DNA of 64,000 nt, taken from contig PBQA01000028.1 of NCBI GenBank assembly GCA_002724925.1, positions 1-64,000 of the forward strand. Direction: 5' to 3'. This DNA comes from Oceanospirillaceae bacterium (GTDB lineage: Bacteria > Pseudomonadota > Gammaproteobacteria > Pseudomonadales > Oceanobacteraceae). The notes under the pieces are model-generated. The model made no database searches. It saw only the letters and a program-made list of their open reading frames with translations, and was not told the origin of the DNA. Both the position numbers and the translations under genes were made by a program. Position 1 is the stretch's first letter. The number at the start of each line of letters is the position of its first letter. Shown here one piece after another: positions 27,294 through 42,784 of this stretch.

Positions 27294-27317
27294 AAAGCCC
27301 GGCTTATGCCGGGCTTT
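27294..27317 (-). terminator. Rho-independent terminator of the ExbB/ExbD/AgmX operon
   Basis: AAAGCCCGGC, TTAT loop, GCCGGGCTTT, then more T on the minus strand (seven in all). It closes the long minus-strand operon seven bases after its last stop codon. Confidence 0.92.
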
Positions 27318-27323
27318 AATGCT

Positions 27324-28289
27324 TCAAGGGTTAAAGCGGATTGGGTACTCCACCTTAGTAACCTCGACGTTGGGTCGACTCTCAAATGCCATCTGCTGAC
27401 ATTTGAGCTCAACACTGCGAATCAAACGAGCATCTTTGACTTCGCTCTTCGCAGCTTTACACGAAGTGACCGAACCGTCCGGTTGAATCGTCAGCGCCAG
27501 AGTCACCGAACCCTCCAGGGTTGGGTTCTTCCGCAGAGCTCTACGATACAGTCGGTCGTAGTGAACGTTGTACGCTTCGAACACCAGTCTTAGCTCTTCC
27601 TGGCTACGCTTTTTCGACTCCTCTGCTGCCGCGACTGCCTCTGCAGCGACTTCAACGGTTGTCGTAGCGCGATCGCCAAGGTTTTCGCCTGAGGTGACAT
27701 TAGTCAGCGTTGCTACATCAACACCACCCGAGCTACGGCTTGCCGCTGTACGGTCTACCACAGAGCCAACGTTCGTGGCCTGAGTGCCTTTCGTACTGAG
27801 CGACGAACTCGAAGTACTCAATGCTGTCGTTGGTATTGCCGATCGCAGATCGCTCAGAGCCTGAAGTGCCTCACTGCCGACTGCATCCCGCGCCTTCTGT
27901 TTAGCTGCCTGGCGCTGTTGCTCTGTTGCTTCAACCTTAGGCTTAGGCTCGGGTTTAGGTTCCGGCTTCGGCTGAGGTTTCGGCTCAGGCTTAGGTTCAG
28001 GTTTTGGCTCGGGCTCAGGTTCCGGCTCGGGCTTTGGTTCCGGCTTCGGCTGAGGTTTCGGCTCGGGCTTTGGTTTAGGAAGCTCCTGCTTTTTGCGCTC
28101 AATCACTTTCGCCAGTTGAGGCGGAAGTTCTTCCAGCTCTGATCTGTCTTTTTCCGGCAGATCTATAAAAGGAACCACAACACCCACCAATAGCATCAAA
28201 GCCAGCAGTACACCGAGAATAGTCCAGAGACGTCTGCTGTCTTCACCGTCGGTCCACGGCAGTTCAGGTGTGCGATAAATACTGCTCAT
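27324..28289 (-). CDS. TonB-like energy transducer with AgmX/PglI-type C-terminal domain
   Basis: 321 residues; GGAGG lies six bases before the ATG, which overlaps the upstream stop as TGATG. One membrane anchor (TILGVLLALMLLVGVVVPFI, residues 25-44) is followed by a 50-residue KPEPKP/EPEP rigid rod to span the periplasm, then a Ser/Thr linker and a globular end from SQEELRLVFEAYNVHYDRLY. That end (NPTLEGSVTLALTIQPDGSV, SCKAAKS, ELKCQQMAFES) matches the AgmX/PglI domain with its two cysteines, not the TonB domain. Such proteins pass motor work from ExbB/ExbD to the outer membrane. It is last in its operon. Confidence 0.87.
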   Translation of the reverse strand: MSSIYRTPELPWTDGEDSRRLWTILGVLLALMLLVGVVVPFIDLPEKDRSELEELPPQLAKVIERKKQELPKPKPEPKPQPKPEPKPEPEPEPEPKPEPKPEPKPQPKPEPKPEPKPKVEATEQQRQAAKQKARDAVGSEALQALSDLRSAIPTTALSTSSSSLSTKGTQATNVGSVVDRTAASRSSGGVDVATLTNVTSGENLGDRATTTVEVAAEAVAAAEESKKRSQEELRLVFEAYNVHYDRLYRRALRKNPTLEGSVTLALTIQPDGSVTSCKAAKSEVKDARLIRSVELKCQQMAFESRPNVEVTKVEYPIRFNP

Positions 28290-28783
28290 CACTCACCTCC
28301 CGGCTGCTTTTGATTGACCGCCAGTGAGATATTGGCAAAGCCTGACTCAGCACAGGTACTCATAATTCGTTTCAGAACTGAGTATGCCGTAGCTTTGTCA
28401 CCCACAATCGTCACGGGCCGGCTGTCTTCGCCTTCAGCAATTGGCGTGCGACTGGCCTGATACTCAAGCTCAGTGAGCAACGAGGGGATGATCTCGTCAT
28501 CGCCCTGCTTGATCGCAGACAGCTGTGCTACCGACCGCCCTTGTACGAGCAGGTCAGTTTCTGTCACCAGTACTGTCAGTTGCTCTTCAGGCTTATTCTC
28601 TGATACGGACACCGGAAGCTCTACGCTGTCGGTGTTCTGAACTTCCACCTCAGACTGATTTACCATCAGGAAGAACACCAGAATGGTGAAAATATCCATC
28701 AGGGCCGTCAGATTAAGACCGTTCTTATTTGCATTGCGTTTATGGTTGCGATGCATACGCTTTGCACGACGTGACATTTTCAT
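28289..28783 (-). CDS. ExbD/TolR-family protein, second copy (with membrane Asp)
   Basis: 164 residues: a very basic cytoplasmic N-terminus (SRRAKRMHRNHKRNANK), one membrane helix from GLNLTALMDIFTILVFFLMV, and a periplasmic ExbD domain. Asp30 occupies the conserved site that carries protons in ExbD, TolR and MotB-like stators. It overlaps both neighbours by one to four bases, indicating tight stoichiometry. Together with the ExbB and the other ExbD it should form a proton-driven motor. Confidence 0.92.
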   Translation of the reverse strand: MKMSRRAKRMHRNHKRNANKNGLNLTALMDIFTILVFFLMVNQSEVEVQNTDSVELPVSVSENKPEEQLTVLVTETDLLVQGRSVAQLSAIKQGDDEIIPSLLTELEYQASRTPIAEGEDSRPVTIVGDKATAYSVLKRIMSTCAESGFANISLAVNQKQPGGE

Positions 28784-29289
28784 GGTGCCACCTCCTGCGC
28801 ATCGGCCTCACCCAGGGAAATATCTGGGAAAAGAACAGCATCAACCAGGGACGCAGCGACCACAGCCGGGTAAATACGTACCGTATCCATAACAGTTACC
28901 AGGGTCTGGTAATCCGTATTAGGCTCTGCGAGCAATGTAATATCTCGTTTTTCTGCAAACTCTGGATTCTTCTTGGCTTTCTGAAGTGCCTCCGAAAGGC
29001 CCTCATAGTCAAGTTCTCCGGACTGAGCAGGAATAGAAGCCAGCTCTACCGTCTCTTCCTGATATGTTCGGGAGAGGGTAAATCCTGTCTTCCTGATCGT
29101 CACTTCAAGCGTGACATCCTCCGGGTTAACGGCACCTGGCTCATCGCCAGAAGGTAACCTTAGATCCAGTACGGCCAGTTGTGAAAAGACCATATTCATC
29201 AACAGCACAGGTACCAGTACGATCATCAGGTTCATGAAGGATGTTACGTTGAGTTCCGCCTCTTCTCTGATTTTCTTATGGCGTCTCAT
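28780..29289 (-). CDS. ExbD/TolR-family protein, first copy (Asp replaced by Asn)
   Basis: 169 residues; cytoplasmic RRHKKIREEAELNVTS, one membrane helix, periplasmic domain. Aligned with the next gene, NVTSFMNLMIVLVP against NLTALMDIFTILVF, the conserved proton-carrying Asp is Asn20 (codon AAC at 29232-29230). A proline also interrupts this helix. The protein may therefore be structural rather than proton-conducting. The ExbB-ExbD-ExbD order matches AglR-AglQ-AglS of Myxococcus gliding. Confidence 0.9.
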   Translation of the reverse strand: MRRHKKIREEAELNVTSFMNLMIVLVPVLLMNMVFSQLAVLDLRLPSGDEPGAVNPEDVTLEVTIRKTGFTLSRTYQEETVELASIPAQSGELDYEGLSEALQKAKKNPEFAEKRDITLLAEPNTDYQTLVTVMDTVRIYPAVVAASLVDAVLFPDISLGEADAQEVAP

Positions 29290-29303
29290 CGAACGACTCC
29301 TGA

Positions 29304-29960
29304 TTAACCGTTACTTGAAGGAGTACCGTTTTGTCCTGCCTTTTTATCCGTGATGGTATTCAGGAACTTAACTCCTGCCATCTCGATACTGTCGACGATT
29401 TCAGATGTTTTAGTCTGCAGATAGCTATGCAGCAAAATCAGAGGAATAGCAGCAATCAGACCGAAAGCTGTGGTGTTCATCGCAACCGAAATACTCTGAG
29501 ACAGCAATTCAGCCTTTTCAGCAGCGGGGGCACTGGCGACCGCGGTAAACGCAGCAATCAGACCCATAATGGTGCCCAGAAGTCCCATCAGAGTCGCGAT
29601 ATTAGCGAGGGTTGCGATGTATGGAGTGCGCTTTTCCAGTTGAGGAATCGCCTCCATCAGGCCTTCTTCCAGTGCATATTCAACTTCTTCACGACGCTGA
29701 GCCGTCGGAATACGCTGAATGCCGGCCGCAAAGATATTAGCAATGTGAGTATCAGAGCTATTGGCGTAATTCAATGCAGAACGCAGATCACGCTTCTGCA
29801 ACATAGGGTACATTTCATCGAAGGCACGACGGTTACCCGACTTTTCCTTCGCGAGGACGAGCAAACGCTCAATTGCGACAGCGAGACCGATTACCATGAT
29901 GATTGCAATCGGGTACATAAACACACCACCTTCCTGAAGGAAGCGAATGATGGAATCCAT
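29304..29960 (-). CDS. MotA/TolQ/ExbB-family proton channel protein
   Basis: 218 residues with three membrane helices: EGGVFMYPIAIIMVIGLAVA near residue 10, ANIATLMGLLGTIMGLIAAF near 117 and SVAMNTTAFGLIAAIPLIL near 158. The last two have the small-residue and Thr pattern of the TolQ/ExbB channel, including GLLGTIMGL. CCGGAG precedes the ATG. It provides the proton path for the two ExbD genes directly downstream. A 103-base gap from the upstream gene may hold a secondary promoter. Confidence 0.94.
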   Translation of the reverse strand: MDSIIRFLQEGGVFMYPIAIIMVIGLAVAIERLLVLAKEKSGNRRAFDEMYPMLQKRDLRSALNYANSSDTHIANIFAAGIQRIPTAQRREEVEYALEEGLMEAIPQLEKRTPYIATLANIATLMGLLGTIMGLIAAFTAVASAPAAEKAELLSQSISVAMNTTAFGLIAAIPLILLHSYLQTKTSEIVDSIEMAGVKFLNTITDKKAGQNGTPSSNG

Positions 29961-30063
29961 TGGAGATCTCCGGTTCTGATACTATTGTTGTTCTGATAAG
30001 CAGCTCATTAAAGCTGCACACGCGCTGATTTAACCATTATTTTCGTGCAGAAAAAACCGCACT

Positions 30064-30378
30064 TCACTCTATTTCCAGGACTTCGTTTAACCGTGTGACG
30101 TGATCCTCTTTTTCGTTATAACGCTTACCATAACGTATTTCGCGTTTCAGACTGTCACGGGTCAATGGTCGGAACCAATGACGATTAAAGCTGGTAACGG
30201 GCTCATACAACCGCCCGGTTCCTGGTGGCGGTTGCCAGGCATTAATATAGAGTACATTCGGATTCTCGCTATTACCTCGAATTGTCATTCCCTGAAGACG
30301 AACGACATCATCGTCTGCCGACAATGCTTCCAGGCTAATGAGCAATAGTGGCAAAAGGACACCGGCCAGATATCTCAT
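30064..30378 (-). CDS. Small secreted protein of the envelope-machine operon
   Basis: 104 residues. A signal peptide (MRYLAGVLLPLLLISLEALSA) is followed by about 84 mature residues, DDDVVRLQGMTIRGNSENPN onward, with a basic C-terminal half (SLKREIRYGKRYNEKEDH). I recognise no family. The start overlaps the upstream TPR lipoprotein stop by four bases, so it is a fixed operon member. It may be a periplasmic linker protein; the sequence gives no more. Confidence 0.75.
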   Translation of the reverse strand: MRYLAGVLLPLLLISLEALSADDDVVRLQGMTIRGNSENPNVLYINAWQPPPGTGRLYEPVTSFNRHWFRPLTRDSLKREIRYGKRYNEKEDHVTRLNEVLEIE

Positions 30379-31220
30379 ATTTCACCCCCACTTTCCCGAT
30401 CACCTTCACTTTGTGGCGTATCGTCAGAAACGTCTGAACTATCTTCGGTGCTTTCAGTAGCAACCGCGCCTTCTCCGCCGGCCCCACCATCTTGTGACAC
30501 AGATTCACTGACACCAACGTCTGCGGCACTTTGTGGCGAGCCTATTGCCACTGAAGCTTCGCTTACCGGTTGTACAGGTTCCTTCAGCGAGTCATACCAC
30601 TCATCAATGCTTTCTGGGTCGGCCTCATCAACCCCAACGCGACGCGCAAGATCAATCACCCAGATATTGAGTTTTTCATCTTCAGGCATCAATCGACGCG
30701 CTTTCCGGTAAAACTCCAGTGCGCTTTCGAGATCATTACGATACAGGTCTAATAGAATACCCAGATTGTAATAATGGCGTCCTTCATCTGGCTCGCAGTC
30801 AATAGCCGCGTAATAGCTTGCCTGCGCATCATCAAAACGCCCTAGTTCGCGATAGGTAATACCACTCAGAGCATGAACCGGGCAAAACGTCGGATCTATC
30901 TCTTCAACCTTTTCATAGGATGCCGCCGCCTCTTCGTAATTACCTGTCTGATAATATGCCAATCCGAGGTTGGTCCAGACGCCGGGGTACTGCCCATAAA
31001 CAACCGACATATCAGCCCAATGCTGCCTTGCGTCCTCAAATTTCTGATCCTCCATCAGAGACAGGCCATTGCGATATTCATCCTCAAACCCTTCTGGCAG
31101 AGGTTGCACCAGAGGCTGACCATCCGGTCCAAGCTCAGCGGAATCTTGAATTGCAGGTTTATTCGAGGCGCAGGCACTCAATAAAACAATCAGTAACGTA
31201 CTAGCGAATCTGATCAACAT
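30375..31220 (-). CDS. TPR lipoprotein
   Basis: 281 residues. Lipobox LLSAC at residues 14-18 (MLIRFASTLLIVLLSACASN) predicts an outer-membrane lipoprotein. Four or more TPR units occupy residues 50-200, for example GVWTNLGLAYYQTGNYEEAA, HALSGITYRELGRFDDAQAS and YNLGILLDLYRNDLESALEF. The C-terminal 70 residues are acidic, Ser/Gly-rich and disordered. It overlaps the large TPR lipoprotein by 20 bases. TPR lipoproteins are typical scaffold subunits of Glt-type machines (compare AglT and GltE). Confidence 0.86.
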   Translation of the reverse strand: MLIRFASTLLIVLLSACASNKPAIQDSAELGPDGQPLVQPLPEGFEDEYRNGLSLMEDQKFEDARQHWADMSVVYGQYPGVWTNLGLAYYQTGNYEEAAASYEKVEEIDPTFCPVHALSGITYRELGRFDDAQASYYAAIDCEPDEGRHYYNLGILLDLYRNDLESALEFYRKARRLMPEDEKLNIWVIDLARRVGVDEADPESIDEWYDSLKEPVQPVSEASVAIGSPQSAADVGVSESVSQDGGAGGEGAVATESTEDSSDVSDDTPQSEGDRESGGEI

Positions 31221-34008
31221 ACGTCACCGCTTTTTCTTGTTTGTCGTATTGGCCCGGCATCAACTTAGCCATGGACCTGAAACTCTCTTTAACCCACTCA
31301 TCGTACAAGCCATCGTAAGTCCTGCTGATATTGGTCTGATGAATATCAATCGCCGCTTCTTCCAGAGGGAATGCCTGATCCTCAAGTAGGAAGGTATACT
31401 CTTCCTCCTCAAGCTCATCCATGCCCGCAGGACGCTCTGACTCCATCAGGCAGCGGCTGAATTTTGCGTACATATCGCCAATATGAAATGTCGCGGGTGT
31501 CGTGAACTCCAGCACTTCCATCTCAACGGCCTGGGTGTAACGTTTAAGAGCACCCTGCATCGCTTTATTTTTACGCACAATGCTTTTCGCCAACGGCAAA
31601 TTAATTTCTATCTCGTCGAAGCGACGTCGGTCAAATTCGCCCAATTCAAATGCCGCTTTAGACGCGAGATAACGGGACCGATCAGTTTTGTCATCACCGG
31701 CGCGAGTGTGAAGACTAATTATTTTATCCAGCCAGAAACGACGTTTTTCTTCTTCCCCAAGGTTTGCGTATATCTGATCAAGTTTGTAGTGCGCTTCAAT
31801 AGCTGGATCAAAAGGACGTTTGTAGGTGTGGGCATAGCGACGATACATAACAATCGCGTTATCAAAGTCTTCCGCTTTCTCAAAATATTCAGCCGACTGG
31901 AATGCAGCGATGCGTTTCTCTTCGTCATCCGTGCCTGAGTCAGAAATTGACTTAAGCTCAAATGCCGCTTCCCGCCACTCCCCTTGTCCTTCATAGGCGA
32001 TAATTAATTTACTGCGAATATCATCACTGAACTGGCTGTTTGGGTGAGTCTCACGAAATGCGAGCAAGACTTCTTCTGCCCGAGCAAAATCTTCTGTCTG
32101 CATCAACAATGTTGCAGCATCGTATTCTGCATTTTCCCGCAGATTACTCTCCGGGACGACATCAGCAAGCCGTAACCACTGCGCCACCGCTTCTTCGGGA
32201 TTATCCTCTTGCGCTGCTTCGCCCTGTTTATAAATAGCCGCGGCTGACTTCTGGCGAAGATCCGCCCGCTCTTTTCGACTCAGTTCTGAATATTCAGAGG
32301 CAGCTAACAACGCGGTTTCGGCTTCTTCAAATTTGCCAAGCTCAAACGCTGAATGCCCCTGCACCAGAGACGCACCGTAAGAATACCTCGGCGGCAGCTC
32401 CACCCCACTCTCCTGAGCAAGGCGTGCGGTCGTTAAGGCCTGACCGTAATATTCGTCGGCAAGAAGCATTTCCGCAGTATTCACCAGAACGGTACCCCGC
32501 CGTTCATCCTGTGGAAATTCAAGCACGAAGCGCTTTGCACTGGCGACAGTCAGCTGGCGCCAGCGTGCCTCTTCCTCGGGGGTCGGCTTATACTTGTTGT
32601 ACGCAAGCAATGCCGCATACCCTGCTTCAGCGGCGTTTTCGTAAAATGGATACTGATAAGCAACAATTTCATAGTTGTTGCGAGCATCGTCGTAGTTTCC
32701 AATTTCGTAGGATATTTCTGCCAACAAAAAGTGGGCTTTTACTGCATCCGGTGCTTTAGGGAACGAACGGATATATTCCCGATACCAACCTGCAGCCTGC
32801 TCCAAGCGCTCCTGTTTTTCCTTCGCAGACTTCGTTTGCTGCCCCCAGCCGTGTGCAAACGTCGCCAGATCCCAGATGTAATCCCCCAAAGCCACCGTAA
32901 TCAATGTGCGAACATCTTCACCATGTGTCTCCCAATAAGGGGAACCGACACCGAAGCGTTCAATAAATACCTCTTTATGCTTTCTGCGCAGCATCGGATA
33001 GCCTGCTTTTTCATACCCCGAGATTAAACGGCGATAATAAAGCGGGGCTCGGTCATCGTCGGGGAAGCGATCAACAAACGCGCGTAATGTTGACGCTGAA
33101 CTTTTGTAGTACTTTTTTTCGTAATACTGATTGGAGAGCTCTGCATAAATACGATATTCAAAATACCGTGCACCGTGCTCGTCGTAAAAACGTGCAATCT
33201 CGTTCCAGTCACCGAGGTAGTCAAACATCAACGCCATAATACGCAGGGAGTCATTCAATACCTCCAGCTCTGCGCCATCTGCTGCCATTAATGTTTCATC
33301 ATCCGGAAAATGTTCATCAATCATTTCCGTGAAAGCCAGCAGGCTGTCTTCAAGTCTGTTCTGCTTAAACAACGCCCAGCCGCGAAAATACTGAGCATCC
33401 AGGTAATACTGGTTTCCATCCGGCCCAAACTCTACGACCTGCGCAAAGCGATTTTCTGAGGCTTCGAAATCGCTGACGTTATAGAGCATCCGCCCAAGCC
33501 TGAACTGCGACTCTAAATAGTAAATTGACTCGGGATAGCGCTCAGTCAACTCTTCAAGAACAGCAATTGCCTGGTTCTGGCGCCCGGCTAATGAGTACGC
33601 TTTCGCCAACTGATAATAGATAGTGTCGTTGTCTATCCGATCAGGGTAGAGTTCAAGAAGGGTTTCGTAGTCGCCAATGGAGGCTTCTGCCATTTCCCGG
33701 TCTTCCGCGACCATGGCATCAATATCATCGCCAAACTGATCCATTCTGATTTCGTCCCACTGAAGCTTGAGTCCCGCAATACGGTGGGCGACACGGACGC
33801 GCAACTCAGGGTCCGTTGATACTTCCAGATAGGATTGATAGCTGCGAATCACGTCTCTATGGTCAACCCCCAGGGGCTCATCAGACGCCGTGCGCACGGT
33901 AAGCGTACCGATATCAGACAGATACTTGCGTTCATCTTTCTTGCCAAACCAGCTACAGCCAGAACTCAACGCAATCAGAATCGTCAGTAGCAGAAAACGG
34001 GACAACAT
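31201..34008 (-). CDS. Large TPR outer-membrane lipoprotein
   Basis: 935 residues. Lipobox LSSGC with Cys18 (LLTILIALSSGCSWFGKKD). Nearly the whole mature chain is TPR-like helix pairs, for example IYYQLAKAYSLAGRQNQAIA, YYLESQFRLGRMLYNVSDFE, AHFLLAEISYEIGNYDDARN and AHYKLDQIYANLGEEEKRRF. Stretches recall BamD-type repeats. The protein is very acidic and would form a long periplasmic solenoid anchored to the outer membrane. The ATG overlaps the upstream stop (TAATG). I know no close characterised homologue of this size; large TPR proteins are hallmarks of Agl/Glt-like systems. Confidence 0.86.
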   Translation of the reverse strand: MLSRFLLLTILIALSSGCSWFGKKDERKYLSDIGTLTVRTASDEPLGVDHRDVIRSYQSYLEVSTDPELRVRVAHRIAGLKLQWDEIRMDQFGDDIDAMVAEDREMAEASIGDYETLLELYPDRIDNDTIYYQLAKAYSLAGRQNQAIAVLEELTERYPESIYYLESQFRLGRMLYNVSDFEASENRFAQVVEFGPDGNQYYLDAQYFRGWALFKQNRLEDSLLAFTEMIDEHFPDDETLMAADGAELEVLNDSLRIMALMFDYLGDWNEIARFYDEHGARYFEYRIYAELSNQYYEKKYYKSSASTLRAFVDRFPDDDRAPLYYRRLISGYEKAGYPMLRRKHKEVFIERFGVGSPYWETHGEDVRTLITVALGDYIWDLATFAHGWGQQTKSAKEKQERLEQAAGWYREYIRSFPKAPDAVKAHFLLAEISYEIGNYDDARNNYEIVAYQYPFYENAAEAGYAALLAYNKYKPTPEEEARWRQLTVASAKRFVLEFPQDERRGTVLVNTAEMLLADEYYGQALTTARLAQESGVELPPRYSYGASLVQGHSAFELGKFEEAETALLAASEYSELSRKERADLRQKSAAAIYKQGEAAQEDNPEEAVAQWLRLADVVPESNLRENAEYDAATLLMQTEDFARAEEVLLAFRETHPNSQFSDDIRSKLIIAYEGQGEWREAAFELKSISDSGTDDEEKRIAAFQSAEYFEKAEDFDNAIVMYRRYAHTYKRPFDPAIEAHYKLDQIYANLGEEEKRRFWLDKIISLHTRAGDDKTDRSRYLASKAAFELGEFDRRRFDEIEINLPLAKSIVRKNKAMQGALKRYTQAVEMEVLEFTTPATFHIGDMYAKFSRCLMESERPAGMDELEEEEYTFLLEDQAFPLEEAAIDIHQTNISRTYDGLYDEWVKESFRSMAKLMPGQYDKQEKAVTYVDQIR

Positions 34009-35975
34009 TACTTAACCGCCTCCTGGTTTTCAGTGTCCGGCTCATACTCAAGCGAGCCAAATTCATTTTGCAGCGAGTCATCATAAAGGCGCGCTAATGC
34101 GAGTCGTGCCTGGGCAAGATACAGCGTCAGGCGTTCATGGAGTTCTGACAGGTGAGCTCTGGCCATGTCGGTCAACAAAGTTTCCTGATCACTCTGAATT
34201 TCAGCCACGCTCGCATCTAACGCAGCAACGCGTTGCTGTAGCTGACGCACACGTTCAGGGAGTCCGCGCCAGGAACTGTCTGCCCACATAAGAGACGTGC
34301 GGGTATTTTCGAGCTGACGAAAAAGCTTGTCCGTTTCAGAACGCAATATCATATGGTCGCGCTCTGTATCCCATTTTCGCTGTGGCTGTGCTTCATAAAT
34401 CGACCACAACTGGAGGCCACGCATACGACGCCAGCGCTCTTTATAAGGCGCAAGATCACGGGTAGGCGTTCCGATTTTTTGCAGCTGAGTAACCGCAGGA
34501 ACGACATTTCTGAGACGTTCGATACGTGCCTCATCACTTTTGGATGCGAACGAAAATACGGTCTCATCTTCATCCAACAGCCTGTCCTGCACGGCAAGAA
34601 TACTTCGAAGAACATCCATCTGACGTTCCTCAAGCTGTTCTAGCAAAGCCTCACCGCCCATCGATTCAAGATTCTCACGACGTTCAACCAGAATGTCGGA
34701 CCATAAAGTCAACTCACGCATGGCTTCTGCAAGGTCGGCACGGATACGGTCAAGATCATGGAGTTTTGCCAATTCTTGCGTGAATGACTCTTCTTTGAGT
34801 AACCCCTGAGCAAAACGTGTGATCTGGCTTTGTGGCAGATCACTCAGCGCCTGCCTTTGCCAACCCCAGTTCTCAGAATCATTTGCCTGACGCCATTCAC
34901 CAAGCCAGTCACCTAACGATTCTTCCTGGTTAAGTTGTTTCAGCTCTGAGACCATCTCCGTCAAACGTTCTTCAACACGTTCGTACGCCAGAACAGATTG
35001 ATTTACAGCATCAACCAGTTCAAGCGTGTGAGGTACTGCCAGGTACGACTCCACCACCGCCGGGTGATATTCGTCATACAGCTGCTGCAGTATACGCCAT
35101 GGTTGAATGGCATCTTCATAACGCCACTGAGCTAATAAGTTCCATCCGTAATGCAGTAACGCCGGAGGCGTAAACACTGATTCAAGCGTCACGTCCGAGA
35201 AATAACGATTAGCTATCACATGTTTATCTCGCTCCATCGCGGCGATGCCAGAAATCAGCAAAATACGATCACGCAGAGCTGTACCCTCTTCATTGTCTGG
35301 CAAGTAGAAGATGGCCTCGTCAATGGTCGATTCAATGTCACGACTTCTGAAATTCTGACGAACCATTGCCAGAATCAGGTTGTAGCGTGCGTACCCAGTC
35401 CAGATATCCGCGTCGGCCATCCCGTTAAGTACAGTCAAGGCTTCTTCAACGCGATCCTGCTCACTAATGCTACTGACCAGTAGATACGAGAGTTCCTGAT
35501 TATGCCGCCGACTAAGCCGCGGAGATGCCGCAAACGCATTCCGTGCTGCTTGCTCCGCACGTGCGTAGAAGCCCGCACTGAACAGTCGCTGAGCCAGGAA
35601 ATACCAGGCGTCACCAGAAGCACTGCCGCCGTCTTCAAAAACCGCATAGAAAAGGTCTTCAGCCTGATCTTCCAAACCAAGAGACAGAAAGACAGCAGCA
35701 CGCATGACCTCTGCCTCTGTTTCGGGCGTTGAGTCACTACCGATCAGCTCTTTCCACTCACGCAGATAATAGAGCGTCTGGTAATACTCACCGACGAGAT
35801 AGGAATAATAAAAGTTACCGCGCAGCAGACGTTTTTCAGCATCTTCATTGACGCCAAGGCCTTCGATATCGTCGAGATCAATATCAATATCGTCTTCTGA
35901 CAGGTCCTCTGCATTTACACTGACACTAAAAAACGTCAGTGGAACCAGCAGAAGTAGAAGAAATAGTTTCCGCAT
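34008..35975 (-). CDS. Periplasmic TPR/coiled-coil protein
   Basis: 655 residues. Signal peptide (MRKLFLLLLLVPLTFFSVSV, cut after NA), then an acidic run EDLSEDDIDIDLDDIEG. TPR-like repeats run from about residue 45 to 300 (GDAWYFLAQRLFSAGFYARA). From about 330 to 630 it is predicted coiled coil (AYERVEERLTEMVSELKQL, LRQLQQRVAALDASVAEIQ). A TTG one codon before the ATG is not used. It lacks a lipobox, so it is soluble periplasmic or bound to partners. The layout suits an elongated connector between inner-membrane motor and outer membrane. Confidence 0.84.
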   Translation of the reverse strand: MRKLFLLLLLVPLTFFSVSVNAEDLSEDDIDIDLDDIEGLGVNEDAEKRLLRGNFYYSYLVGEYYQTLYYLREWKELIGSDSTPETEAEVMRAAVFLSLGLEDQAEDLFYAVFEDGGSASGDAWYFLAQRLFSAGFYARAEQAARNAFAASPRLSRRHNQELSYLLVSSISEQDRVEEALTVLNGMADADIWTGYARYNLILAMVRQNFRSRDIESTIDEAIFYLPDNEEGTALRDRILLISGIAAMERDKHVIANRYFSDVTLESVFTPPALLHYGWNLLAQWRYEDAIQPWRILQQLYDEYHPAVVESYLAVPHTLELVDAVNQSVLAYERVEERLTEMVSELKQLNQEESLGDWLGEWRQANDSENWGWQRQALSDLPQSQITRFAQGLLKEESFTQELAKLHDLDRIRADLAEAMRELTLWSDILVERRENLESMGGEALLEQLEERQMDVLRSILAVQDRLLDEDETVFSFASKSDEARIERLRNVVPAVTQLQKIGTPTRDLAPYKERWRRMRGLQLWSIYEAQPQRKWDTERDHMILRSETDKLFRQLENTRTSLMWADSSWRGLPERVRQLQQRVAALDASVAEIQSDQETLLTDMARAHLSELHERLTLYLAQARLALARLYDDSLQNEFGSLEYEPDTENQEAVK

Positions 35976-35979
35976 CAAA

Positions 35980-36477
35980 TTACCAGTACTTCAGCTGCAA
36001 CCGCGCACTCTGCAGATCATCACGATCAACAATCAAGAGCTCTGTAATTAATGGCTTACCGGTTTTAGTAATTATTTCAGTGATTGCCAGCTCTCGCCCC
36101 TGCCCCTGATGATCCACACCGCGAATGGTCACAGACACCTCGTGTTTCCCCGGTGCGAGGTTCAGGTCACCCAACGGTTGAACCGCACCCATTCGAAGCG
36201 CTTTCACCTGACGCTCTGTGTAAAGGTGCTGAAGCTCGAGCTTACCATCGACAGACAACTCGACGGATAAGGGCTCAAAATATTCACCGTGATTCAGAGT
36301 TACATGAAATGCAGCACGAGTCGTTGCCGGGCTAAGAAGTTCGCGTTCGAGCTCATACAGGTCACGATTAAGTTCAAGAACAGCCTCTTTGGCTGTCATA
36401 ACCTGTTCACGCACTGCCGCGTCTTCTGCCATAACTGCAGAAGTAAACAGCATGCTCAGAACTAACAGAAATTTCAT
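35980..36477 (-). CDS. Secreted beta-rich protein of the envelope-machine operon
   Basis: 165 residues with a signal peptide (MKFLLVLSMLFTSAVMA-ED). A short helical segment (EAVLELNRDLYELERELL) precedes an immunoglobulin-like beta domain: RAAFHVTLNHGEYFEPLSVE and LNLAPGKHEVSVTIRGVD. No named family recognised. CCGGAG precedes the ATG. It is three bases after the thioredoxin-like gene and four before the TPR/coiled-coil gene. A periplasmic chaperone-like or adhesive module is possible but unproven. Confidence 0.75.
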   Translation of the reverse strand: MKFLLVLSMLFTSAVMAEDAAVREQVMTAKEAVLELNRDLYELERELLSPATTRAAFHVTLNHGEYFEPLSVELSVDGKLELQHLYTERQVKALRMGAVQPLGDLNLAPGKHEVSVTIRGVDHQGQGRELAITEIITKTGKPLITELLIVDRDDLQSARLQLKYW

Positions 36478-36480
36478 TGT

Positions 36481-36975
36481 CTACTCCGGTTGCTGATAGT
36501 CACGGCCCTGGCTCATCCAGCGCATCACTACCTGCTCTGTTTCCTGATAATTATCGTCAAGATCACCCGTAATCAGGTGATCGAGGCGACCATCGGCATT
36601 GATCAACATAACCGCGGGCCGCTCTTCAAATACCCACCCCTGACGCCACTTGGGCTCATACTTCAGAACTGGAATACGCATATTCGGTGGTTGACGACTG
36701 CCTTTTGGCGTCCACACAAACCACCCCTTTAACCTCTCAATCTCCAGACTCTCAGCAAGGAGTTGATATCTGACGAGTCGCTCGGAGCATTCATTGCAGT
36801 CGCCAAGCCAGATTAACATCAGGTACGAACCCCGAGCCTCTTCTAGGCGCTGACCAAAACCGTTGGTCGCTGGCAGAGTGAAATCCGGAACCATGTCACC
36901 GGGCTTCAGACTTTCTGAAGCCTGCAGCTGGAGCGAAAAACAGATCAGTAATACAAGCCGAGTGAGATATCCCAC
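36481..36975 (-). CDS. Secreted thioredoxin/TlpA-like protein
   Basis: 164 residues. The start is a GTG at 36975 preceded by GGGGGA; the gene overlaps the barrel gene upstream by 31 bases. Signal peptide MGYLTRLVLLICFSLQLQA, then the redoxin core LKPGDMVPDFTLPATNG, the active-site pair C-N-E-C near residue 58 (LIWLGDCNECSERL) and the cis-proline strand RPAVMLINADG. It is probably a periplasmic oxidoreductase. In this operon it may form or protect the two-cysteine AgmX-type domain of the TonB-like protein (inference). The CNEC pair is unusual for TlpA. Confidence 0.82.
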   Translation of the reverse strand: MGYLTRLVLLICFSLQLQASESLKPGDMVPDFTLPATNGFGQRLEEARGSYLMLIWLGDCNECSERLVRYQLLAESLEIERLKGWFVWTPKGSRQPPNMRIPVLKYEPKWRQGWVFEERPAVMLINADGRLDHLITGDLDDNYQETEQVVMRWMSQGRDYQQPE

Positions 36976-37553
36976 TGCGTTCCCCCATCTGATTCAAGCG
37001 ACTGAAGACGTTCATCATCAACCAGAAACTCCCGCACGCCTATTCCCGTCCAGATGCGCTCACCATGAAACTGAACATTCATGCCGAGAGACGCATAGCG
37101 ACCGCTGGTATCACCCGAATGTTGCTCGCCTGCGTTCAGTTCTGCCGCAAGCACCCAGGGTACCGCACGAACGCCGCTAGTGCTGGCCGTCCCCTGAAGC
37201 AACGCGTAGCCCGCGCCGGCGGAGTAACGCAGCAGCTCTTCATCATCACTGCGCACCTCCTGGCCGTCGTTAATCACAGCGCGTGTGCTGAACTGGCCAA
37301 GCTGAGCTTCGCCCAGCAGATACCATTTTTCACCGGCGAAATAGCGTGCAGTAAAAAGAATGCCGGGTTGTGAATCGTTGTTGTATGCCAGCGTATTCGC
37401 ATAACCAACACTAAAAATACCGTGCTCGACTTCTGTATCACCTAAATCATCCAGGCCGTTTCTCTGATTACCTGGGCTGAACACCTCGGCCGCAGCAGTG
37501 AACGACCACAACGTCATACCAGCAAGGCCCACCACCCGCGTAAAAGAATTCAT
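36945..37553 (-). CDS. Small outer-membrane beta-barrel protein
   Basis: 202 residues from MNSFTRVVGLAG (GGAG nine bases upstream; the start overlaps the SH3-gene stop as ATGA). Signal peptide ends SFTAAAE. The mature part alternates hydrophobic and polar residues in about eight strands, such as GILFTARYFAGEKWYLLGEA and IWTGIGVREFLVD, and ends in aromatic LGLYY, the usual barrel signal. The size suits an 8-stranded OmpA/OmpW-like barrel. Glt machines also contain small barrels (GltA, GltB, GltH); similarity is by type, not by sequence. Confidence 0.8.
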   Translation of the reverse strand: MNSFTRVVGLAGMTLWSFTAAAEVFSPGNQRNGLDDLGDTEVEHGIFSVGYANTLAYNNDSQPGILFTARYFAGEKWYLLGEAQLGQFSTRAVINDGQEVRSDDEELLRYSAGAGYALLQGTASTSGVRAVPWVLAAELNAGEQHSGDTSGRYASLGMNVQFHGERIWTGIGVREFLVDDERLQSLESDGGTQWDISLGLYY

Positions 37554-38260
37554 AAACGTAATCTCCAAACTAGCGATGCTGATCTGTGCGTCGTCATATC
37601 ACTGTCTAATGTCGTACCAACCTCACCCCGAGCCCCAACCTCGAAATAGCGGGCGACGCGCCACATAGCTTCGACGCCCACGCCGCCTACCCACGTTGAT
37701 TCAGCGGTATCTGACCAATGTGTATTCCCACGTTCACTCTGGGCGTAGCCTGCAAAAGCATTCCAACTGAATGTGAGGTAATCGGCCGGCTGGGCGAATT
37801 GGGTGATTACTCCCGCGTCCAGTAACGACCACGCGGAATCTCCTTCAGGAGCGCGAGTGTAGCGTACGGAACCATATTCTCCGAGGACAGGAAACAGCCA
37901 ACCGACAGAATAGGCGCTCGCTGTTGAAAGGGTCAGTTCGAGGCGATGTTTCCCGGGTCGCGCGTCATTCACGAGCTTCCAGAGTTCGTCACGAGGGAAA
38001 GTTTCGAGTAGGTGAAGATCATCAACGTGCAGCCAACCACTATTTCGTCCGTCCGTCGCTTTAACCCAGCTGCCACGACGTGCGACAACATCCAGACGAC
38101 GATAAGGTGTGACTTCGTAAATCACAGGGAAGGCCTCTGATGGCCCATTCCGCAAACCGATATACACCTGCTCAGCAGTAGCCGGTTGAGCAATCCCCAG
38201 AGTGATTACTGTTGTAATCAGCAATATCAGCAGTGGTGAAAACAAGCGCATCGCCTGCAT
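37550..38260 (-). CDS. SH3-domain plus beta-barrel-like envelope protein
   Basis: 236 residues from MQAMRLFSPLL, with AGGA eight bases upstream. Signal peptide to QPATAEQ. Residues 30-85 form a bacterial SH3 domain (VYIGLRNGPSEAFPVIYEVT, RGSWVKATDGRNSGWLHVDD), a fold that often binds peptidoglycan. From about residue 105 the chain looks like outer-membrane barrel strands (LTLSTASAYSVGWLFPVLGE) and ends SASLVWRLRL. This would tether an outer-membrane protein to the cell wall. It is the first gene of the 12-gene operon, 72 bases after the MoxR/VWA pair. Confidence 0.78.
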   Translation of the reverse strand: MQAMRLFSPLLILLITTVITLGIAQPATAEQVYIGLRNGPSEAFPVIYEVTPYRRLDVVARRGSWVKATDGRNSGWLHVDDLHLLETFPRDELWKLVNDARPGKHRLELTLSTASAYSVGWLFPVLGEYGSVRYTRAPEGDSAWSLLDAGVITQFAQPADYLTFSWNAFAGYAQSERGNTHWSDTAESTWVGGVGVEAMWRVARYFEVGARGEVGTTLDSDMTTHRSASLVWRLRL

Positions 38261-38340
38261 GTAAAACATCCTGCAAATCTTTTATTATTTTCCGGCGGCG
38301 CCAACGTTCTCTGGCAAACCCACCGATTTTTAATTTTCAG

Positions 38341-39522
38341 CTACTTGCTGAGAAACCTCATTGCATCCTCAAGACCAGACAAGGTCATGGGATACATTTT
38401 ATCTTTGACCAAAGAACGTATCGCACCCAGCGAGCCGCCATTCCCCCAATGGTCTTCTGGTGCCGGGTTCAACCAGACCAGTTTATCGAAATGGTTCGCC
38501 ATACGTTCCATCCAGACAGCGCCGGGTTCTTCATTCCAATGTTCAACACTGCCGCCTGCATGCGTAACCTCATAAGGTGCCATCATGGCGTCACCGACGA
38601 AGATAACCCGGTAATCCTGTCCATACTTGCGCAAAATGTCCCAAGTTTCTGTGCGCTCGTTCATACGACGAATGTTATTTTTCCACACCGACTCGTACAG
38701 GCAGTTATGAAAATAAAAGGTTTCCATATGCTTGAATTCGGTGCGTGCAGCGGAGAACAGCTCTTCACAGACGCGGACATGCGGATCCATGGAGCCACCA
38801 ACATCAAAGAAAAGCAGCACTTTAACGGCATTATGACGCTCGGGAACCATCTTAATGTCCAGCATACCGGCATTTCGGGCGGTAGAGCTGATGGTGTCGT
38901 TCATATCAAGCTCATCGGCTGCACCCTGTCGCGCAAAGCGGCGCAGACGCCTCAGGGCAACCTTGATATTACGAATACCTAGCTGAACGTTATCGTCCAA
39001 ATTCTTATAGTTACGCTGTTCCCAGACTTTCGCTGCCTTTTTATGGCGCGACCTGTTCTGATCAATACGAACACCTTCGGGATTGTAACCCTCGGAGCCG
39101 AACGGTGATGTACCGCCCGTACCAATCATTTTGTTACCGCCCTGGTGGCGCTTCTTCTGCTCTTCCAGACGCTCCTGCAGAGTCTTCATAAGCTCATCAA
39201 AGCCACCAAGAGATTCAATCTTGGCCATTTCGTCTTCAGAGAGCAGCTTCTCCATTTCTTTCCGCATCCACTCTGCAGGAATACTGGCATCGTCGAACAA
39301 CGACGGCATTGCCTCTATGCCCTCAAAGTATGCGGCGAATGCCTTATCGAACTTGTCGTAATGCTTTTCGTCCTTCACGAGGATCAGCCGCGCAAGCGCG
39401 TAAAACTCCTCAAGGTCAGCAAATGCCACCCGCGCCTGAACAGCTTCAACGAGATCAAGGTACTCGCGAATGGAGCACGGCACTTTCGCACGACGAACGG
39501 TGTCGAAAAAGTCGATCAGCAT
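38341..39522 (-). CDS. CoxE-type VWA-domain protein
   Basis: 393 residues, cytoplasmic. N-terminal helical region (FFDTVRRAKVPCSIREYLDL), a basic middle, then a von Willebrand A domain near residues 215-390 with a MIDAS-like VLLFFDVGGSMDPHVRVCEE and GDAMMAPYE. CoxE-family proteins work with MoxR-type AAA ATPases to assemble or remodel protein complexes or insert metal cofactors. It lies two bases after the MoxR gene, the standard pair. Its client may be the adjacent trans-envelope machine or the larger VWA protein. Confidence 0.9.
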   Translation of the reverse strand: MLIDFFDTVRRAKVPCSIREYLDLVEAVQARVAFADLEEFYALARLILVKDEKHYDKFDKAFAAYFEGIEAMPSLFDDASIPAEWMRKEMEKLLSEDEMAKIESLGGFDELMKTLQERLEEQKKRHQGGNKMIGTGGTSPFGSEGYNPEGVRIDQNRSRHKKAAKVWEQRNYKNLDDNVQLGIRNIKVALRRLRRFARQGAADELDMNDTISSTARNAGMLDIKMVPERHNAVKVLLFFDVGGSMDPHVRVCEELFSAARTEFKHMETFYFHNCLYESVWKNNIRRMNERTETWDILRKYGQDYRVIFVGDAMMAPYEVTHAGGSVEHWNEEPGAVWMERMANHFDKLVWLNPAPEDHWGNGGSLGAIRSLVKDKMYPMTLSGLEDAMRFLSK

Positions 39523-39524
39523 GA

Positions 39525-40367
39525 TCAGCCCCGGCGGCGACTCATAAAGGCGAGGCGCTCAAGCAAATGGACATCCTGCTCGTTCTTAACGAGTGCACCA
39601 GCCATCGGCGGAATTGCCTTAGTCGTATCGTGGTTACGCAGCAATTCAACCCCCAGCTCATCTGCCATCAGTAATTTCAGCCAGTCAACCAGTTCTGATG
39701 TTGAAGGCTTCTTCTTCAGGCCTGGCACTTTGCGCACATCGAAGAATACCTCAAGTGCGTCATTGACCAGTTCCGCCTGAATGTTCGGAAAGTGTACGTC
39801 AACAATGGCCTTCATCGTTTCGCGATCCGGGAAATCGATATAGTGGAAGAAACAACGACGCAGAAATGCATCAGGCAGTTCCTTCTCGTTATTACTGGTA
39901 ATCAGAATAATCGGGCGGTGCTTGGCAACAATCCGTTCCTGAGTCTCGTACACGAAGAATTCCATCTTATCGATCTCCAGCAGGAGGTCGTTCGGAAACT
40001 CGATATCGGCCTTGTCGATTTCATCAATCAGCAGCACAACAGGCTTGTCCGCCTCGAACGCCTCCCAAAGCTTACCTTTCACGATGTAATTAGAAATATC
40101 GTTTACACCGTCAACGCCAAGCTGCGAGTCACGCAGTCGACTGACCGCATCGTACTCGTATAACCCCTGATGGGCTTTAGTCGTACTTTTGATGTGCCAT
40201 TGGATAAGGTCAGTGCCTAATGAAGTGGCCAATTGCTCTGCCAGCATTGTCTTACCGGTTCCCGGCTCACCCTTGAGCAGAAGTGGACGCTGCAAAGTGA
40301 TTGCTGCATTGACTGCCATTTGCAGCTCAGGTGTCGCTACGTATTCGCCGGTACCCTGGAATTTCAT
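39525..40367 (-). CDS. MoxR-family AAA+ ATPase
   Basis: 280 residues. Walker A GEPGTGKTMLAEQLA near residue 37, Walker B VVLLIDEIDKADIEFPNDLL, sensor 1 ITSNNEKELPDAFLRRCFFH, and the lid domain up to the end. MoxR ATPases are chaperones that act through VWA partners. The next gene downstream is such a partner. Starts ATGAAATTCCAGG, with TCCTG upstream. No signal or membrane segment. Confidence 0.94.
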   Translation of the reverse strand: MKFQGTGEYVATPELQMAVNAAITLQRPLLLKGEPGTGKTMLAEQLATSLGTDLIQWHIKSTTKAHQGLYEYDAVSRLRDSQLGVDGVNDISNYIVKGKLWEAFEADKPVVLLIDEIDKADIEFPNDLLLEIDKMEFFVYETQERIVAKHRPIILITSNNEKELPDAFLRRCFFHYIDFPDRETMKAIVDVHFPNIQAELVNDALEVFFDVRKVPGLKKKPSTSELVDWLKLLMADELGVELLRNHDTTKAIPPMAGALVKNEQDVHLLERLAFMSRRRG

Positions 40368-40528: not shown

Positions 40529-42736
40529 CTATTCCTTTTTATCGTCTGGGAGGTCGAACTCCCCCCAGTCATCATCGTCATCGGCAGACTCTGCTGCATC
40601 GGCAGCTGGCTCAGGGCTTCCCATGTCAGTATCGCCGCCCATAGACGCAGTCACGCGACTTTCTTCCTCAGCAGCTGGGATTTCCTCTTCCTCTGCGCCG
40701 TCAAAGTTATCGAAGTCCGCTGAGTCCAGGTCGGCGTCATCAAGCTGGCCTGTTTCAAGATCCAGCGACTCACGGGCCGCAACATCCTCCGGGCTTTCTG
40801 CCTTTCCTTTGCGCCGCATCAACCACCACCATGCCAGACCACCTAGAAGCGCCAGGTTCGCTACACCCAGTAGTACGTAAATCCACCAGGCGACGCCAGA
40901 CTCTTCTTCGGTTTCAACTTCTTCTGTCGCAACCTGCTCGCTATACCTCGCCGCAAGGTCGGGGACGACTTCCTCTGGTGCCGGAGTACTCACATCCTGC
41001 GAAGGCACCTCTTCAGATTGAGGTTGCTCTTGCTTAGATTGATTATCAGGCGACGCAGCGGATTCTGCAGCACCCCCCTCGTTTTCGGCGGGATCATCTT
41101 CCGAACTGGCCGTGCCTGCGACTTGCGGCTGCTCAGGCATCATAGATGCCAAGGCCGCTCTTTCAGGAGCACTTTCAGACACAAGAGGAAAAGTCACAGG
41201 GATGCTCTCGGGTTTACTTTTGAATGTCTTACCGCTGGCAGACACTCCCCGAATATTAAGCATGATCTCGTAGTTCCCCGGCCCCTTGTCGGCCATGAGC
41301 GCCAACTCCCAGGCATCGTTTTCTCCCGAATACTCCATCGCATTAATCATGGAACTGCCATCCGGGCTCGATATTCTGGAAATCACACGTGACAAACTGG
41401 TATCAACGAGGTCGCTCTGAGGGTAAACACGCACATTAAGAATTTGCTGATTCACATCGGGCTCAACCTCCACGCGCATCGGCTCTGCCAGTGTCGCCGT
41501 CAGGACCTGCTTACGCTCAAATGTACGCCCCTGGGCGTTAATCTCGAGTCGGTACTCCCCTGGCTGATTCAATCGACTGAGAGTCTCTCTGAAGATACCG
41601 TCAACTGGGAGGCTTTCCGGGTCGGACAACAACTTACTTCCGGTGCGCCCATCGGGGGCTGTGACCTGCAGGCTGACATCCGTCAACTGCAGAATGGTTT
41701 CTTCATCGACCGTTTCACCCTCATTTTCAAGGGACATTTCGAGCTGAACTGGTACACCTGAAAACAAACTCCCCGGAAGCCCCGTCACTTTCAATTTGAG
41801 ATCCGATAAGATCTGCACACGACTGTCTGGCGCGACATCAGCGTCGGCAGCCCATTCTCCGTCCTCGGGAGATTTAACGGTAATCAGGTCAAAATTAAGA
41901 TCATGATGCCAGCGAACATCCGCAGAGGTCGCCGCAGAATTCTGAGAGATACGCAAACCTGAAGGCGACACCAGCTCTGTAGGTTTACTGGAAGCCGCTC
42001 TGAAGATCAGCGCGGTAAATTCGTTAACGCTTGGATCAATATTGAAGGTATTACCAACAAGCGGGACCTGCTCGCTTGGTACCGCGCGATCAAATGCTTT
42101 CAGGAAAGCAGGCATCAGTTCGTCATTAGTATGGGCTTTCAGGGCGAGACCGTCGGTTTCCATAGCCAACTGCCCAAGCATGGAGACATCGGCAGCGTCC
42201 GATAATGCGAGCGTGTGAATGCGGACATTCTTCGACATGTACTCAGGAAGAACGGCGCTGATGAGCCTTTCGCGAGCGGCAGTATTCGCCGCTGTCTCCG
42301 GGTCACCACCGGAGGTATCCATATCAATCCGACCGTCGGTCAGAAGAATGACTGTCTGATCAAACTGACTGTTCTGAGTTGCCTCGTAAAGTGCTCGGTC
42401 AAGGGCATCCACGAGATTTGTATTGAGGCCAACTGAACTGATATCCCCACTCGCCGCACGTGCCTTCTGGCGCCAGGCTTCATCTACCGTACCCAGGGGA
42501 ACCAACATATTTACGTAACGTCCGAAGGTCCATACGCCTGCACGGGCCCCCTCCGGCAGAAGTTCCGTCAACAGATTCAGTGCAGGGCGTCTGAGGTTCT
42601 CCGGGTCCGTTTCCTTCATACTGCCAGAGATGTCGATCACGATTCGTACATCCGGCGCAGGTCCCTCGTCGGCCCAAACACTTACGGACAAGAGGGTAAA
42701 CAGTACCGTCAGGCAAATCGTTCGGAAAAACAGCAT
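40529..42736 (-). CDS. Large VWA-domain membrane protein
   Basis: 735 residues from MLFFRTICLTVLFTLLSVSV (signal peptide; GGAG upstream). An ATG 30 bases earlier would bury this signal. The VWA domain, residues 25-210, has a perfect MIDAS DISGSMKE and VILLTDGRID. Beta-sandwich domains follow (LKLKVTGLPGSLFSGVPVQL, PGEYRLEINAQGRTFERKQV), then a Pro/Glu/Ser linker, one membrane helix near 620-645 (WWIYVLLGVANLALLGGLAW) and a strongly acidic cytoplasmic tail. It resembles the gammaproteobacterial family filed as TIGR03503 (from memory). It probably senses or binds a ligand in the periplasm. Confidence 0.85.
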   Translation of the reverse strand: MLFFRTICLTVLFTLLSVSVWADEGPAPDVRIVIDISGSMKETDPENLRRPALNLLTELLPEGARAGVWTFGRYVNMLVPLGTVDEAWRQKARAASGDISSVGLNTNLVDALDRALYEATQNSQFDQTVILLTDGRIDMDTSGGDPETAANTAARERLISAVLPEYMSKNVRIHTLALSDAADVSMLGQLAMETDGLALKAHTNDELMPAFLKAFDRAVPSEQVPLVGNTFNIDPSVNEFTALIFRAASSKPTELVSPSGLRISQNSAATSADVRWHHDLNFDLITVKSPEDGEWAADADVAPDSRVQILSDLKLKVTGLPGSLFSGVPVQLEMSLENEGETVDEETILQLTDVSLQVTAPDGRTGSKLLSDPESLPVDGIFRETLSRLNQPGEYRLEINAQGRTFERKQVLTATLAEPMRVEVEPDVNQQILNVRVYPQSDLVDTSLSRVISRISSPDGSSMINAMEYSGENDAWELALMADKGPGNYEIMLNIRGVSASGKTFKSKPESIPVTFPLVSESAPERAALASMMPEQPQVAGTASSEDDPAENEGGAAESAASPDNQSKQEQPQSEEVPSQDVSTPAPEEVVPDLAARYSEQVATEEVETEEESGVAWWIYVLLGVANLALLGGLAWWWLMRRKGKAESPEDVAARESLDLETGQLDDADLDSADFDNFDGAEEEEIPAAEEESRVTASMGGDTDMGSPEPAADAAESADDDDDWGEFDLPDDKKE

Positions 42737-42784
42737 AGAAGCTCCGACTCCCTTTAACTCAGTCAAAATCCAGCTCAGTCAAAA

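Follow-up and report, generated by a model that had tools for sequence, protein, structure and literature searches.

The machines closest to the gene cluster described here are the AglRQS-Glt gliding machinery of Myxococcus xanthus and its reduced counterparts in other proteobacteria. The sections of Luciano et al. (2011; PMC3169522) used here describe a clustered Agl/Glt "core complex" (GltC, GltD, GltE and GltG together with AglR, AglQ and AglS) in Gammaproteobacteria, with no function assigned and with one additional gene that is missing from Myxococcales and Bdellovibrionales. In the pertinent part of a 2022 review (PMC9389320), M. xanthus AglQ and AglS are both said to bear an Asp at the proton site, and whether they form a heterodimer or homodimers is left undecided. 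Excerpts of a further paper (PMC3858216) report that M. xanthus AglQ D28N is paralysed, and that one AglRQS motor serves more than one Glt-type complex, the second being the Nfs complex of spore coat transport. Here we analyze a cluster of twelve genes in a 64-kb stretch of DNA (the window; positions 1 to 64,000 of contig PBQA01000028.1) from the 3.97-Mb genome of an Oceanospirillaceae bacterium. Judged by its sequence, the cluster probably encodes a gammaproteobacterial Agl/Glt-type core machine that is driven by protons and exerts a pull on barrels of the outer membrane by way of GltG and TPR lipoproteins. This is a known kind of machine, largely in print already; new are its asymmetric motor, a class-wide exchangeable module and clusters that have no motor genes.

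Gene content and relation to the Agl/Glt core complex

The twelve open reading frames (ORFs) occupy 38269-27324 on the minus strand and are listed below, with lengths in amino acids (aa) and with signal peptides and lipoboxes read by eye.

37550..38269, minus: SH3 domain with a C-terminal barrel (SH3-barrel), 239 aa; signal peptide; Pfam SH3_3 E 6.6e-5, 23.5 bits, below the cut-off of 27
36945..37568, minus: small outer-membrane beta-barrel, 207 aa; TIGR04565 E 0.0031, 17.5 bits against a cut-off of 60
36481..36975, minus: TlpA-like thioredoxin with CxxC, 164 aa; secreted; AhpC-TSA E 5.9e-4, AhpC/Redoxin 20.2 bits, below the cut-off of 26
35980..36477, minus: Ig165, secreted protein with a helix and a beta-sandwich; unmatched in Pfam and NCBIfam; model with a predicted local distance difference test score (pLDDT) of 70.5
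34008..35978, minus: GltC-like secreted TPR/coiled-coil protein, 656 aa; weak TPR_2 match (E 0.006), no family over cut-off
31201..34008, minus: GltD-like TPR lipoprotein, 935 aa; assigned from TPR families, a lipobox (SSGC) and position
30375..31220, minus: GltE-like TPR lipoprotein, 281 aa; TPR_1 E 3.5e-18, lipobox LSAC
30064..30378, minus: sp104, small secreted protein, 104 aa; no Pfam or NCBIfam family match
29304..29960, minus: AglR/ExbB-like pentamer subunit, 218 aa; MotA_ExbB E 7.7e-29
28780..29289, minus: ExbD-1, 169 aa, Asn20 at the proton site; ExbD E 1.7e-15
28289..28783, minus: ExbD-2, 164 aa, Asp30 at the proton site; ExbD E 9.3e-16
27324..28292, minus: GltG-like TonB-type rod with an AgmX/PglI C-terminal domain, 322 aa; NF033768 55.8 bits (cut-off 40), TIGR01352 (TonB C-terminal) 28.5 bits (cut-off 27.1)
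27294..27317, minus: intrinsic terminator after GltG, a 10-bp stem followed by a T-rich tail

A first-pass annotation made from this DNA alone had described an operon of twelve overlapping genes at 27324-38260, on one strand and in this order, with a single terminator. The strand, the order, the 3' end and the terminator stem after the last stop codon are borne out by the ORF map, and the domain assignments agree, with the SH3 and AhpC/Redoxin matches below cut-off and the 656-aa TPR match weak. Two details change. The first ORF begins at 38269 if its first start codon is taken, and 7 of the 11 junctions between first-start ORFs overlap, the largest gap being one of 103 nucleotides 5' of ExbB. 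Such terminator candidates are not enriched in the region as a whole (15, against a shuffle mean of 15.1).

Over their best segments, the cluster proteins share 69-100% identity with their counterparts in Thalassolituus maritimus DSM 24913, where the genes follow the same order. Beyond the genus, the order that recurs is Ig165-GltC-GltD-GltE-sp104-ExbB-ExbD-ExbD-GltG. We mapped 79 loci (23 + 56) and recognized all nine of these core genes in 60 of them, as the co-occurrence expected by the first-pass annotation would have it; Ig165 was recognized in 78 and sp104 in 74, some of the misses being contig ends and two being fusions of GltC and GltD. A GltC-like protein is present in 25 of 35 relatives' genomes. 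At E<=1e-3 the GltC profile matches 131 of the 369 genomes in a sample of the class, 85 of which, including the genome under study, were counted as strong, and 56 of 398 genomes in a sample of the phylum, where the strong matches all belong to the same class. Ig165 is a near-invariant core subunit without a named family. The best Foldseek match to its fold has an E of 7.9e-3, and in a VIA search extracellular domains of PepT2 and transthyretin-like domains scored as high as Z 9.7; we read no function from these matches, the sandwich being too common.

Some variation within the core was seen among the mapped loci. GltC and GltD form a single ORF in two of them (L096 and L116; 1535 and 1416 aa), a fusion that suggests direct contact between GltC and GltD. 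A subtype (L091, L101, L103, L104, L106, L107, L108 and L110) has a GltG of 446-477 aa and a GltD of 1037-1314 aa, with no barrel module in the stretch mapped. Longer GltGs elsewhere carry an N-terminal stretch that resembles a coiled coil by eye.

The gene content, the order and the co-occurrence of the genes all parallel the Agl/Glt system. One ExbB-like and two ExbD-like motor genes lie together, and the genes are gathered in one region, as they are in Agl/Glt core complexes outside the Deltaproteobacteria. The C-terminal AgmX/PglI domain of GltG scores over its cut-off. In having an AglR/Q/S-like motor in one region with GltG and with candidate GltC, GltD and GltE genes, the window cluster resembles the 2011 core complex, and the proposal that a reduced form exists outside Myxococcus had in this sense been published; compared with the consulted portions of that paper (PMC3169522), the window cluster differs by two near-invariant extra genes (Ig165 and sp104), by the linked barrel/thioredoxin module and by a fixed Asn in one ExbD. 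With M. xanthus AglRQS-Glt it shares the motor type, the TonB-like GltG with its AgmX/PglI end, the TPR proteins and the outer-membrane barrels; it differs in having one proton-site Asp instead of two and in its GltG, for which the Pfam scan gave no FHA match. Two marks of the complete Myxococcus gliding machinery were looked for in the genome. The Arf family PF00025, which we take to be the Pfam family of MglA, has eight matches there, none of them over cut-off, and the CglB adhesin (NF033757) has no match over cut-off. The earlier statements that a Ras-like MglA is lacking and that this is not a complete gliding system agree with these results.

We also compared the ExbB of the window with its paralogs. 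In a tree of ExbB-type proteins, 35 core ExbBs (the window copy and one from every second locus) form one group with support of 100/99, and seven other MotA/ExbB/TolQ proteins of the genome fall outside it, with long branches that leave the outer order unsure. The best Protein Data Bank matches of ExbB are TolQ structures, and GltD has matches below cut-off to YbgF (79.8 of 90.1 bits) and BamD-type TPR (58.7 of 81.4) profiles, all of which would suit a Tol-Pal-like role in envelope maintenance, in which the machine tethers or remodels the outer membrane or the cell wall. Such a role is nonetheless improbable: an apparent Tol-Pal set, judged by order and size only, lies elsewhere in the genome (L135), Pfam scans found no Pal, TolB or peptidoglycan-binding domain among the cluster proteins, the distribution of the cluster is patchy, and the ExbB tree also argues against it.

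An asymmetric pair of ExbD subunits

The residue at the proton site differs between the two ExbD proteins without exception. It is Asn in 67 of 67 aligned ExbD-1 sequences and Asp in 67 of 67 aligned ExbD-2 sequences from the mapped loci, the two having been told apart by whole-protein profiles and not selected by this residue. The same Asn/Asp split recurs in eight further ExbD pairs, which come from motors located away from the mapped clusters, and four other ExbD/TolR proteins of the genome have Asp at this site. The Asp-to-Asn exchange that paralyses M. xanthus AglQ occurs naturally in one subunit here. Given that Asn is fixed in one ExbD in all copies examined across the class, the sequences predict that ExbD-1 and ExbD-2 form a heterodimer in which there is only one proton site. 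Under the 5:2 rotary model, should it hold, such a motor would pass five and not ten protons per turn. Among the literature matches listed, which cover open-licence papers and so make for a weak statement of absence, we found no account of the Asn/Asp split or of DUF3570 or fibro-slime genes beside Agl/Glt genes.

Outer-membrane modules and neighbouring genes

The first three genes of the cluster encode the SH3-barrel, the small barrel and the thioredoxin, and profiles were used to relate them to proteins outside the bacterium's family. The TIGR04565 family (OMP_myx_plus) matches 9 of 12 aligned small-barrel rows, the window copy included, at E<=0.1, with a best value of 1e-50. A barrel profile built from the window copy and 12 family members has 17 matches among 5523 ORFs from outside the family, all of them TIGR04565-type, and the reverse profile, built from outside the family, finds four family barrels and six barrels of second clusters. 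A model of the small barrel (pLDDT 64.4) has eight strands, like NspA, Ail and OmpA (Foldseek E 3.7e-5 to NspA). An SH3-barrel profile from 18 members outside the family finds the window copy with an E of 1.3e-7, and the corresponding thioredoxin profile finds it with an E of 2.5e-7; the ORF sets searched in these reciprocal comparisons were cluster neighbourhoods, so the latter value says nothing on specificity against other thioredoxins. Both Cys of the CxxC motif are kept in 15 of 15 aligned thioredoxins. Across the class, 111 of 369 genomes have a TIGR04565 match at E<=1e-3, and in 55 a match exceeds the cut-off; 54 of these 55 have a GltC-like gene; 40 of the 56 loci over cut-off lie within 20 kb of a GltC-like gene, 2 lie farther away on the same contig and 14 are on other contigs. 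From its position and the reciprocal profiles, the window small barrel appears to be a diverged relative of the TIGR04565 barrels, and the two barrels and the thioredoxin are likewise predicted to be diverged members of a class-wide module.

Elsewhere in the class the core occurs with other genes. A frequent order is a ~900-aa HZS-alpha/cytochrome-like protein, a small lipoprotein with CxxxxCH (9 loci), an SH3-barrel, a barrel, a thioredoxin and DUF3570, with ApbE near. Among the 79 loci the barrel and the thioredoxin each occur in 38, DUF3570 in 20, ApbE in 18 and the HZS-alpha-like gene in 19, and haem-type motifs are present in both HZS-alpha-like proteins scanned (L045 and L093). There are 32 loci in the class sample with DUF3570 at most 10 kb from GltC, where an expectation that ignores shared ancestry is 0.85; the distance is within 20 kb for 42 of 128 DUF3570 loci and for 42 of 118 GltC loci. 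In the parts of PMC8238504 consulted, DUF3570 is described as a flavinylation substrate of ApbE, in clusters of DUF3570, ApbE, thioredoxin and DUF4266. The thioredoxin is common to those clusters and the window, and DUF3570 and ApbE are found in many relatives' clusters; the window itself holds only the thioredoxin, and the words ExbB, TPR and gliding are absent from the main text of that paper. In six loci (L078, L082, L088, L099, L105 and L109) a different upstream set is present, comprising genes of ~407, ~839 and ~555 aa, with ApbE in some of them. The single copy of the ~839-aa gene that was scanned has a LamG domain, and in several of these loci the opposite strand carries DUF3570 at a distance of 12-15 kb from GltC.

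Such associations, together with the invariant CxxC of the thioredoxin, are what would be expected of an extracytoplasmic redox machine, in which the motor would place or gate electron-transfer proteins of the outer membrane and the thioredoxin would be a remnant of a flavin/cytochrome chain. We regard this as very unlikely for the window cluster, in which Pfam scans found no gene of a flavin or haem family; clusters with a fibro-slime gene and clusters with no module in the stretch mapped also occur, and the genome's own DUF3570-ApbE sets are located elsewhere. These are an ApbE-thioredoxin-DUF3570 set near a GMC oxidoreductase (L133:7553-10210) and a DUF1501-DUF3570-ApbE set (L134:9079-11137).

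The proximity of DUF3570 to GltC also bears on a specialised Ton-like energiser of import or export, in which GltG would open a channel that lets a nutrient or metal cross the outer membrane; the barrels would be that channel here, and DUF3570 elsewhere. The end of GltG is indeed TonB_C-like, and a ferrous-iron transporter is reported in 25 DUF3570-type gene clusters in the consulted parts of PMC8238504. We consider this explanation unlikely. As the first-pass annotation had noted, no TonB-dependent receptor family is found by Pfam scans among the 12 proteins; the one barrel modelled is of a small eight-strand type without a plug, and the three TPR-type proteins and the AgmX/PglI end suit Glt better. 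The missing receptor, together with the placement of the core ExbB outside the genome's other ExbBs, also upholds that annotation's view that this is not plain Ton import.

In six genomes of the same family (L117-L122) there is a second Glt-type cluster, with a divergent SH3-barrel, a TIGR04565-like barrel and a ~244-aa protein beside it. With 101.5 and 108.7 bits, both copies of the ~244-aa protein that were scanned exceed the cut-off of 45 for fibro-slime proteins. Ten clusters, none cut by a contig end, lack ExbB, both ExbD genes and GltG; in five of these GltD, GltE or sp104 is missing too, and in one Ig165 is. An Asn-type motor is found elsewhere in 9 of the 10 genomes concerned, and in the tenth another cluster (L078) meets a contig end before the motor genes. 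Our guess, by analogy with AglRQS and its Glt and Nfs complexes, is that these clusters may share a motor encoded elsewhere, and they would then mirror the use of one motor by more than one Glt-type complex. They differ from Nfs, which in the excerpts consulted (PMC3858216) has its own NfsG, in lacking GltG.

Upstream of the window cluster lie three genes on the same strand.

38341..39522, minus: CoxE-like VWA protein, a neighbour conserved within the family and possibly on the same transcript; VWA_CoxE E 2.4e-10
39525..40367, minus: MoxR-type AAA ATPase, conserved neighbour; AAA E 4.8e-12
40529..42766, minus: VWA protein, conserved neighbour, with a signal peptide and a C-terminal membrane helix by eye; VWA E 9.8e-12, TIGR03503 129.7 bits, below the cut-off of 305.6

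The CoxE-like gene ends 71 nucleotides upstream of the cluster, and the gap between the MoxR and CoxE genes is 2 nucleotides. A promoter scan of the 71-nucleotide gap found no minus-strand site, in a region where the scan has low power (5 sites against 12.8 in shuffles). The 5' limit given by the first-pass annotation may lie further upstream, and the transcript may extend over 14 or more genes. MoxR and CoxE adjoin the cluster in 16 of 18 first-cluster loci of the same family, and CoxE adjoins it in none of the other loci. Just upstream there is also a TIGR03503-like VWA gene, joined in 13 loci by a gene of ~227 aa, which in the single copy scanned belongs to the YLATT family with three transmembrane segments.

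Mode of action of the proposed machine

We propose that the Agl/Glt-type core machine works as follows. ExbB would form an inner-membrane pentamer around the ExbD-1/ExbD-2 heterodimer, in which only ExbD-2 carries an Asp as proton acceptor. Proton flow would move GltG, the TonB-like rod that spans the periplasm, and GltG would engage an assembly of GltC, GltD, GltE, Ig165 and sp104 that its lipoproteins, GltD and GltE, would anchor to the outer membrane. We infer that this assembly exerts its pull on barrel complexes of the outer membrane, which in this cluster are the SH3-barrel and the small barrel, and that the TlpA-like thioredoxin maintains the proper state of the thiols of the barrels or of a partner. 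Other lineages would use this core with the DUF3570/ApbE/cytochrome-like set or with the fibro-slime protein. A broader reading is that an obligately asymmetric 5:2 motor, with one Asp-ExbD and one Asn-ExbD in every copy, is a general-purpose engine for pulling at the outer membrane, in which the cargo module is swapped (it may be the barrels and thioredoxin, a set with a redox barrel that is flavinylated, or a surface protein of the fibro-slime type), and one motor serves several sets in some genomes. We put this forward tentatively, as somewhat closer to doubtful than to probable, and have lowered our estimate of it because the motorless clusters also lack GltG.

Several results count against these proposals. 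The curated whole-protein models are below cut-off in this genome for GltG (23.8 against 650 bits) and GltE (36.7 against 225 bits), and the gliding_GltC model of the Myxococcales (NF033756) matches nothing there, so that the search against Glt/Agl families anticipated by the first-pass annotation succeeds for the AgmX/PglI domain and not for these three whole-protein models. When the gliding_GltC model was also run on 37 genomes of relatives, picked mostly for their GltC-like genes, it yielded 67 matches, all of them weak and short of the cut-off, spread over 31 genomes. The seven best fall outside GltC-like genes, and many others are in GltD-like or other open frames. Of the 67, 18 fall within GltC-like genes; an offset of 86-109 positions is common to 10 of these, another near 210, a repeat register, to six, and two fit neither (17 offsets were computed and the eighteenth was placed by hand); these offsets are a hint of remote homology with Myxococcales GltC and fall short of proof. 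With respect to the barrels, the window copy is below the curated TIGR04565 cut-off (17.5 against 60 bits; E 0.003), three other loci of its own genome outscore it on that model, all with weak matches, and the reverse barrel profile misses it. No barrel, thioredoxin, DUF3570, ApbE or fibro-slime gene is present in the mapped stretch at 25 of the 79 loci, although in at least one of them, L099, such a module lies past the edge of that stretch. Finally, some of the motorless clusters may be decaying, as GltG and, in five, further core genes are missing.

As the surface output of the Agl/Glt-type machine, our preferred guess is the moving or tensioning of surface proteins, in adhesion or surface transport, over import. 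This guess draws on the analogy with Glt and Nfs and on the fibro-slime association. The barrel, flavin and fibro-slime associations point to specific candidates for the target of the core complex in Gammaproteobacteria.

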